58,957 nt of DNA, taken from NCBI GenBank assembly GCA_937992175.1, contig CALKLF010000060.1, forward strand, positions 1 through 58,957, given 5' to 3'. Positions 29,869-50,174 of the stretch are shown in pieces. The translations under genes and the position numbers were made by a program. The notes beneath the pieces were generated by a model that was not told the origin of the DNA, did no database searches, and saw only the letters and a list, made by a program, of their open reading frames with translations. This DNA comes from an uncultured Fimbriimonadales bacterium (GTDB taxonomy: Bacteria; Armatimonadota; Fimbriimonadia; Fimbriimonadales; GBS-DC). Position 1 is the stretch's first letter, and each line of letters begins with the position of its first letter.

Positions 29869-30218
29869 TGGTGGAGGCGGGGGGAATTGAACCCCCTTCC
29901 GAGACCGTTGCGCACCCAGCGTCTACGAGCGTAGCCCTTCTTTGGCTCTCGCGTGGGATGTCCCGAAGGGCAGGGCGCTCCCACGCCAGCTCAGTTCAGT
30001 GTCCTCCCTCAGCCCTGAGCGCAGCCTTGAGAGTAAGTCGATCTGGCTCACGCTCGGCTCGCCCCGGATCGACCGCGAGGCGAGCAGCGGGCTGCTCAAT
30101 TAGGCAGCCAGAGCATAGTTGGTGTTCGCACTTCTTGTGTGCCGCTTTTTAACGAGGCCAGCGGCGCCTCGGCTCGCAACTGAGCGTCAATCGTGTCCCG
30201 TCGAACCCTGACGCCCCC
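29869..30218 (-). ncRNA. ssrA: Transfer-messenger RNA (tmRNA)
   Basis: A 350-base tmRNA read leftward. The 5' end GGGGGCG pairs with CGCCTCC near the 3' end, followed by A and an encoded CCA (29869-29871). The T-arm GGTTCAATTCC and the 5' sequence GGTTCGACGGGAC are canonical. The tag frame starts GCG AAC ACC AAC TAT and ends GCT GCC TAA, giving the peptide ANTNYALAA, close to the usual A-N-(D/N)-(E)-N-Y-A-L-A-A. tmRNA with SmpB rescues stalled ribosomes and marks their products for proteolysis. It lies between two peptidase genes on the same strand. Confidence 0.97.
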
Positions 30219-46484: not shown

Positions 46485-46808
46485 TTAACGGACATTCCCA
46501 CGCGCAGGGGACAGGGAGATAAGTAAATTGGGCGCAAATTCTACCCCCCCTGCACTCTTCGCCCAGCGTTGCAGTTTGGCAATCGCGCGCTGGCAGGCTT
46601 TCTTGGCGCACTCGGTGGAGATTCCCAACGCTTGCCCAATCTGCTCAAGGGGTAGCTCGTCCAGATAGTGCATCTCCACGATGGCGCGGTCGCGCTCGGA
46701 AAGTTGCGCCAGCGCTTGCTCCAGCAGCAGGCGGTTCTCAACGGCTTCGTAGCCTATCTCCCCAACGGCGTGCTCAATGAAGGAGCGATTTTTCAGCGCA
46801 ATCGGGTA
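46485..46808 (-). pseudogene. Truncated sigma factor (region 4 only)
   Basis: About 107 codons. The conserved part is a sigma region 4: LLEQALAQLSERDRAIVEMH, then LPLEQIGQALGISTECAKKA, then QRAIAKLQRW. Region 2, which binds the -10 element, is absent; to the right the frame becomes antisense to nadA. No start codon with a ribosome site is seen. It is either the remnant of an ECF factor cut off when nadA came to lie beside it, or a region-4-only protein with an unusual start. Confidence 0.55.
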
Positions 46809-46812
46809 TAAT
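46807..46812 (+). promoter_or_regulatory. nadA extended -10 box, nearly symmetric
   Basis: GGGTATAATATTC: TATAAT on the plus strand and, read leftward, ATATTATA. The plus-strand start near 46819 gives a leader of about 70 bases to nadA. Confidence 0.7.
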
Positions 46813-46828
46813 ATTCTTGCCACACAGC

Positions 46829-46871
46829 GCGGTGGACAACATCCCCGCGGGCGAAACCCGCTGTTCACCGC
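46829..46871 (+). promoter_or_regulatory. Candidate NAD+-I-like riboswitch in the nadA leader
   Basis: GCGGTG (46829-46834) pairs with CACCGC (46866-46871). Inside are GACAACATCCCC, a stem GCGGG/CCCGC with loop CGAAA, and TGTT. The order P1, ACAAC...CCCCG, P2, GCGAA, P2', TG, P1' resembles the nadA-motif (NAD+-I) RNA known upstream of nadA in Acidobacteria. It has two extra bases in the ACAAC-CCCC joint and lacks the extra stem inside P2. The Shine-Dalgarno AGGAG follows about 7 bases after P1. Confidence 0.45.
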
Positions 46872-46889
46872 AACGGCAGGAGTAAGACG

Positions 46890-47972
46890 ATGAGAAACCC
46901 GACTTTGCCGACGGATCTGAACCTTCAGGTGGAACTGCCGACGATTATGCCGCGTTCCAAGACGCGCCCCTCGGTTCGCTACACCGAAGCACAACGCGCC
47001 ATCGAGCAAGACCCCGAAATCCCCTTCCTGACCGAGCAGGAACTCATCGAGCGCGTGAACCAGCTCCGCAAAGAGCGGAACGCGGTCATCCTCGCGCATA
47101 ACTATCAGCTGCCCATCATTCAGGACTTAGCCGATTTTGTGGGCGATTCGCTGCAACTTTCGCAGCAGGCGGCGAAAACCGACGCGCCCGTGATTGTGTT
47201 CTGCGGCGTGCATTTCATGGCGGAGACGGCGGCGATTCTCTGCCCCGACCGCACGGTGCTGATCCCCGACCCAGAGGCGGGCTGCTCGCTCGCGGCAACC
47301 GTCACCGCTGAAGAGGTGCGCCAGTGGAAGGCGAACCACCCCAACGGCGTCGTGGTGGCGTATGTGAACACCAACGCCGATGTGAAAGCCGAAGCGGACT
47401 ACTGCTGCACTTCCAGCAACGCCGTCAAAGTGGTGCAGGCTATTCCCGAAGATAAGGAGATTCTGTTCCTGCCCGATATGTTTCTGGGGCTGTATGTGCA
47501 GCGGATGACAGGGCGCAAGATTCACCTGTGGCTGGGCGAGTGCCATGTGCATGCGGGCTTTCGCGCGGAGGACATCGCGAACGCGCTGCAGCAGTACCCC
47601 GACGCCGATCTGTTGCTCCATCCCGAATGCGGCTGCGTGAGCCAGTGTATGTTCGCGCTGGCGTCGGGCGACTTGCCCGCGGATCGCACCTTCGTTCACA
47701 GCACGGGCGGCATGGTGCGCCATGTGCGCGAGTCGAGCACGCCGATCCACCTCGTGGCGACGGAGGTGGGCATGCTCCACCGTCTGCGCAAAGAGGCGCC
47801 GCACAAGCAGTATATCCCCGTCAAGGTGGACGCGATTTGCGAGTATATGAAAACTATCACGCTGCCCAAGCTCTACCGCTCGCTACGCGATATGGTCTAC
47901 GAAGTGCGAGTCGAGGAGCCAATCCTGAGCCGCGCCCGCAAAGCGATTGACCGCATGCTGGAGGTCGTATGA
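46890..47972 (+). CDS. nadA: Quinolinate synthase
   Basis: 360 aa type A quinolinate synthase, a [4Fe-4S] enzyme that condenses iminoaspartate with dihydroxyacetone phosphate in NAD synthesis. Recognisable blocks are AVILAHNYQLPIIQDLADFV, GVHFMAETAAILCPD, YVNTNADVKAEADYCCTSSN and HPECGCVSQC. The last two carry cluster cysteines. The ATG at 46890 follows AGGAG. It overlaps the small Trm112-like gene by 4 bases. nadB and nadC are not nearby. Confidence 0.96.
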   Translation: MRNPTLPTDLNLQVELPTIMPRSKTRPSVRYTEAQRAIEQDPEIPFLTEQELIERVNQLRKERNAVILAHNYQLPIIQDLADFVGDSLQLSQQAAKTDAPVIVFCGVHFMAETAAILCPDRTVLIPDPEAGCSLAATVTAEEVRQWKANHPNGVVVAYVNTNADVKAEADYCCTSSNAVKVVQAIPEDKEILFLPDMFLGLYVQRMTGRKIHLWLGECHVHAGFRAEDIANALQQYPDADLLLHPECGCVSQCMFALASGDLPADRTFVHSTGGMVRHVRESSTPIHLVATEVGMLHRLRKEAPHKQYIPVKVDAICEYMKTITLPKLYRSLRDMVYEVRVEEPILSRARKAIDRMLEVV

Positions 47973-50100: not shown

Positions 50101-50174
50101 TGCCGGGTCGTCTAAGGGCAGGACGCCAGACTTTGGATCTGGTAGTGGTGGTTCGAATCCACCCCCGGCAGCCA
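50101..50174 (+). tRNA. tRNA-Gln (anticodon TTG)
   Basis: Acceptor stem TGCCGGG (50101-50107) pairs with CCCGGCA (50164-50170), followed by G and encoded CCA. The anticodon arm is CCAGA-CTTTGGA-TCTGG, loop anticodon TTG. The T-arm GTGG-TTCGAAT-CCAC is canonical. Confidence 0.97.

Follow-up and report, generated by a model that had tools for sequence, protein, structure and literature searches.

A candidate single-domain relative of the NAD+-I riboswitch in nadA leaders of Armatimonadota

A 43-nt bulged hairpin occupies positions 46829–46871 of the window (the whole 58,957-nt stretch of DNA analysed here) and ends 18 nt ahead of the start codon of nadA. The hairpin is real and is conserved across much of the Armatimonadota. 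Because the NAD+-I ligand pocket is retained in it, the hairpin appears to be a form of that sensor with a single, free-standing domain. We put at roughly 75% the probability that the aptamer in the nadA leader is related to NAD+-I, consists of one free-standing domain and exerts feedback on NAD synthesis. The identity of the ligand, the sign of control (off) and its level (translation) are inferred from NAD+-I, as is the term riboswitch.

The hairpin of the window and its flanking signals

The preliminary description, a reading of the sequence, had placed a 43-base fold in this leader, and its coordinates, length and order of elements were all right. The downstream open reading frame is nadA (46890–47972, forward strand), which encodes a quinolinate synthase of 360 amino acids (PF02445, E = 1.9e-114). 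From 5′ to 3′ on the same strand, the hairpin consists of P1 (10 bp), an 8-nt bulge, ACAUCCCC, and P1a (5 bp). The 5′ strand of P1 is GCGGTGGACA (46829–46838) and the 3′ strand is TGTTCACCGC (46862–46871); both are supported by sequence, fold and covariation, and P1 is closed by the conserved final CA of the former and the conserved initial UG of the latter. The bulge (ACATCCCC in the DNA, 46839–46846) matches the RF03013 consensus, is of the NAD+-I ACANCCCC type and is the predicted ligand pocket, a role taken from PMC7297122. It is followed by the P1a hairpin, GCGGG-CGAAA-CCCGC (46847–46861), whose loop is CGAAA and in which folding and comparison of the elements reveal neither P1b nor a GYG internal loop. 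The 51-nt stretch 46826–46876 has a folding energy of −24.6 kcal/mol (z = −3.5) and none of 200 shuffles was as stable. The hairpin of the window is not due to chance. In the predicted fold, its P1 is very stable even without ligand.

A predicted −10 promoter hexamer, TATAAT (46807–46812, forward strand), lies inside CGGGTATAAT, and a similar hexamer occurs close to the 5′ side of the element in most relatives. We looked for a sigma-70 pair with a −35 hexamer at the leader of the window and found none. The Shine-Dalgarno sequence of nadA, AGGAG (46878–46882, forward strand), lies outside P1; it begins 7 nt past P1 and stands 7 nt before the ATG at 46890, and its distance from P1 is larger in many relatives. 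In the Fimbriimonadaceae, the start codon is mostly 29–99 nt 3′ of the element. In many members of this family, no more than about five bases separate the predicted transcription start from P1, an arrangement that draws attention to the mRNA 5′ end. A search for a terminator-like site between the element of the window and nadA found none.

Folds of the window also contain a weak outer pairing, P0, between GCC at the predicted mRNA 5′ end (46819–46821, forward strand), which is suggestive only, and GGC directly 5′ of the Shine-Dalgarno sequence (46875–46877, forward strand). P0 is retained despite changed sequence in three relatives (L015, L016 and L017). Although it is attractive in folds, shuffled flanks do equally well, and we do not claim it. 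By eye, an alternative 5′ hairpin can be drawn in the window’s family (CCAC/GUGG) and in family f19 (CACAGC/GCUGUG). In f19 elements such as L190, L192 and L199, pairing between the 5′ flank and the P1 5′ strand can likewise be drawn by eye, as a possible alternative to P1. Elsewhere in the window, an open reading frame on the opposite strand (46485–47099) has sigma-70 region 4 (PF04545) as its sole Pfam match, and there are ordinary RNA genes for a tmRNA (29869–30218, reverse strand) and a tRNA (50101–50171, forward strand).

Conservation, covariation and distribution in Armatimonadota

We assembled a first set of 16 leaders, including that of the window, by NadA homology alone, so that it was free of RNA-model bias. 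The element is present in 15 of the 16, with an identical bulge in all 15, and the sequence 5′ of it differs among these leaders. In this set, 99.0% of the pair cells are paired (92.7% in shuffles), changes on both sides occur at five of the 15 pairs, and none of 500 shuffles matched the pairing or the covariation score. The covariation and the leader conservation in relatives on which the preliminary description had made its reading depend are thus both present. One leader of the window’s family (L018, genome G014) lacks the element; it is short, with a TATACT about 30 nt before the ATG.

A covariance model built from the 15 elements (R1) and a second model (R2) were run over 291 genomes of Armatimonadota. 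R1 found copies in further families and R2 found more, and 60 elements, 47 of them distinct, were kept after each match had been read. All 60 lie directly upstream of nadA, and no second ACANCCCC occurs within 100 nt of the element at any of the 60 loci, so that it is present there as a single copy. Every match of the phylum search with an E-value up to 0.0069 precedes nadA; matches elsewhere start at 0.0072. Matches that were not upstream of nadA were dropped, both from Armatimonadota (L137, L142, L147, L206, L207, L209, L211–L214, L216 and L217) and from Acidobacteria (L177–L179).

The elements occur in all five sampled families of the window’s order, Fimbriimonadales, and in families f19 and f13 of the phylum; Fimbriimonas ginsengisoli has one in its nadA leader (L139). 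Their distribution is patchy, since nadA is present in 265 of the 291 genomes. The proposal that the motif occurs outside Acidobacteria holds, as does that of a minimal form lacking the extra stem, P1b and the GYG internal loop both being absent. Beyond these proposals, two such domains in tandem make up the known class whereas the element here has one, and several families of Armatimonadota have it. For this compact form, R2 gave no match in 224 Chloroflexota genomes or in 219 from the phylum to which G043 belongs, and its matches in 297 acidobacterial genomes were all false positives; these negatives apply to the compact form only, because R2 does not detect the long tandem form. Two f13 leaders (L232 in G163 and L233 in G159) combine the same core with a longer P1a arm and are possible intermediates towards a form with P1b.

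Among the 47 distinct elements, 90.5% of the cells are paired, compared with 64.5% in shuffles and 28–43% with slid partners, and 147 cells changed on both sides, compared with 50 in shuffles (none of 500 as high). Pair counts were the only use made of the anchored alignment A4, in which loops were swapped for a fixed tetraloop. The later elements came from RNA models, which favour pairing, and covariation is therefore tested more cleanly in the first set. The penultimate C-G and last A-U pairs of P1 and the first pair of P1a, G-C, are invariant (47 of 47). The remaining sequence of P1 and P1a is variable with pairing kept, and P1a is mostly 4–6 bp long with no common loop. The bulge is ACATCCCC in 54 of the 60 elements and ACAACCCC in four, so that 58 fit ACANCCCC; the exceptions are ACAUCACC (L141) and CCAUCCCC (L186). 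Natural bulge variants before nadA thus include these two (in genomes G020 and G230, respectively) and ACAUCUCC (L229 in G174). One bulge cytosine varies naturally, to A in L141 and to U in L229.

These patterns bear on whether the element acts as DNA. An inverted repeat just 3′ of the predicted −10 hexamer, as P1 is, could serve as an operator for an NAD-responsive repressor. However, the 8-nt bulge is conserved on one strand only, G-U pairs are frequent (14 of 47 at P1 pair 6), the sequence of P1 varies freely while its pairing is kept, and the hairpin loop is variable. We regard an operator as highly improbable.

Predicted function and the genes under the leader

The leader RNA is folded as P1, the ACANCCCC bulge and the short P1a hairpin; by analogy with the crystal structures of NAD+-I domains, the bulge, together with the conserved C-G near the end of P1, would bind the ADP part of NAD+ with Mg2+. 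At high NAD+, the bound ligand would fix P1 and the leader 5′ end in place, and less nadA would be translated from the downstream Shine-Dalgarno sequence. The outcome would be feedback on de novo NAD synthesis. Some observations argue against such switching: the Shine-Dalgarno sequence is outside P1, P0 is at the level of chance, the start codons of the Fimbriimonadaceae are mostly 29–99 nt away and P1 of the window is already very stable in the absence of ligand. Lacking the J1-J2 contact, a single domain may also be a weak sensor, since isolated domain 2 of NAD+-I binds poorly (PMC7708056) or undetectably (PMC10702441).

We also considered a stronger proposal, in which a lone aptamer of the domain 2 type is a complete NAD+ sensor by virtue of a new contact of its bulge cytosines, and the tandem of Acidobacteria is derived from it. 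Candidate partners would be a second copy, through dimerisation, the ribosome-binding site or the mRNA 5′ end, and in many relatives only a few bases are predicted to separate the mRNA 5′ end from P1. We hold this proposal as tentative and doubt it more than we credit it.

The ligand could instead be another ADP-bearing molecule (ATP/ADP, NaAD or CoA) recognized by a riboswitch of the same fold. The structures of NAD+-I domain 1 show the ADP moiety only (PMC7297122), full-length NAD+-I shows no discrimination against ATP (PMC10702441), and a second domain to read the nicotinamide part is absent here. Against this, all 60 curated elements precede nadA and none precedes purine or CoA genes, and we consider a ligand other than NAD+ unlikely.

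The genes under the leader belong to two deep NadA lineages. NadA of the window’s family is 49–66% identical to NadA of Symbiobacterium, Bipolaricaulota and others, but only about 26–34% identical to NadA of other Armatimonadota. The latter form one group with the NAD+-I-linked NadA of Acidobacteria, which shares 52–56% identity with F. ginsengisoli NadA, and this grouping has a branch support of 100/100. Both lineages are preceded by the same leader element. The RNA therefore tracks the pathway rather than the protein, which favours a metabolite sensor. Most simply, either the leader stayed in place in the window’s family when nadA was replaced or it was captured a second time; replacement of the gene beneath a retained candidate riboswitch is probable in this family. 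That the same leader precedes two deep nadA lineages suggests that a regulatory RNA can persist after the gene under its control has been replaced.

The same comparison bears on a protein-binding hairpin, through which NadA or an RNA-binding protein of the NAD pathway would repress translation with no small-molecule sensing by the RNA. A small conserved hairpin near the start codon, as in the window’s family, would suit such a site. Binding by NadA itself is nevertheless unlikely, because the two NadA lineages that follow the same element are only about 32% identical, and in RF03013 this invariant bulge is known as the pocket for ADP/NAD+ (PMC7297122). Overall, we judge a protein site improbable, and we retain a metabolite-sensing relative of NAD+-I as the preferred reading.

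Relation to the NAD+-I class and other NAD+ riboswitches

At the element of the window, the NAD+-I model RF03013 scores 18.0 bits, below its gathering cut-off of 37.5 bits, and an Rfam scan of the window at the gathering threshold returned no NAD+-I match. A sub-threshold score is formally one of the refuting outcomes named in the preliminary description. The other two did not occur, as covariation is present and the leader is conserved, and its NAD+-I-like reading is supported, with RF03013 as the right family. Scores in relatives, at the element itself, were 34.5 (the best of 20 loci scanned), 29.5 and 26.2 bits, and RF03013 at the element accounts for seven of the ten Rfam matches with E-values up to 1 across the 20 loci. 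The scores are low because P1b and the internal loop are missing. As those of the window and the scanned relatives fall below the cut-off, a scan at the Rfam threshold misses the single-domain form, and current models thus overlook RNAs of this kind. One other match in the window, to asX3 (19.5 bits, cut-off 40), was rejected as chance.

NAD+-I has been reported as limited to Acidobacteria (PMC7749635), as always tandem (PMC7708056) and as rare, with 101 examples (PMC7749635, PMC7708056, PMC10702441). We located the authentic tandem in four of 60 acidobacterial genomes. Our literature search, which was largely of open-access papers and did not cover the class-defining paper, returned nothing for NAD+-I RNA together with names of Armatimonadota. 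The number of ligands bound, one or two, and the purpose of domain 2 are disputed (PMC7749635, PMC7708056, PMC10702441), and this question would become testable with a natural one-domain form that precedes nadA in a second phylum.

A further possibility concerns ancestry and is compatible with the preferred reading of function, namely that the element of Armatimonadota and NAD+-I are not homologous and arose by convergence. The core is small. Within the long NadA lineage, the tandem-bearing Acidobacteria and the single-element Armatimonadota form separate clades, and many acidobacterial long-type nadA genes have neither the tandem nor the single element. Weighing against convergence, the bulge, the closing pairs and the gene association are identical, and the free N position is U or A in both. 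We think independent origin the less likely of the two histories, though a real contender.

In domain 1 of NAD+-I, the ADP moiety is held by the penultimate C-G pair of P1, through an adenine contact, and by the ACANCCCC bulge, whose C13 and C14 pair with the GYG internal loop (PMC7297122). The elements of Armatimonadota share the bulge and the closing pairs by which the ADP moiety is held in those crystal structures. They differ from domain 1 in lacking the GYG internal loop, the 7-bp P1a and P1b; their P1a leads to a hairpin loop that varies and has no conserved GYG. The C13/C14-G38/G36 pairs therefore cannot form within the element. This leaves the bulge cytosines partnerless inside it, and the natural variation of one of them fits the loss of that contact.

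Domain 2 of NAD+-I has no internal-loop contact, yet NAD+ occupies the same pocket in it (PMC7708056). When isolated, it binds ADP only at 3.4 mM (PMC7708056); isothermal titration calorimetry (ITC) did not detect binding to isolated domain 2 and gave one ligand per full-length RNA (PMC10702441). The elements have in common with domain 2 a P1 closed by C-G and A-U, the bulge ACAUCCCC, a P1a starting with G-C, the lack of a working internal-loop contact to the bulge and a downstream nadA. Unlike domain 2, they stand alone without domain 1, occur outside Acidobacteria, mostly have a P1a of 4–6 bp without P1b and place the ribosome-binding site after P1 rather than in it. In NAD+-I, that site is in the 3′ strand of P1′, whereas the AGGAG of the window follows the end of P1. 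NAD+-II (the pnuC motif), which the Rfam scan did not match in the window, shares NAD+ sensing in the literature with the function proposed here and differs in its gene and in its fold, a pseudoknot with a triple helix (PMC10085692). The element of the window has the pocket residues of both NAD+-I domains and no GYG loop, and thus resembles domain 2 standing alone. With one domain, no GYG contact and a ribosome-binding site outside P1, it is best treated as a variant of NAD+-I rather than a strict member of the class.
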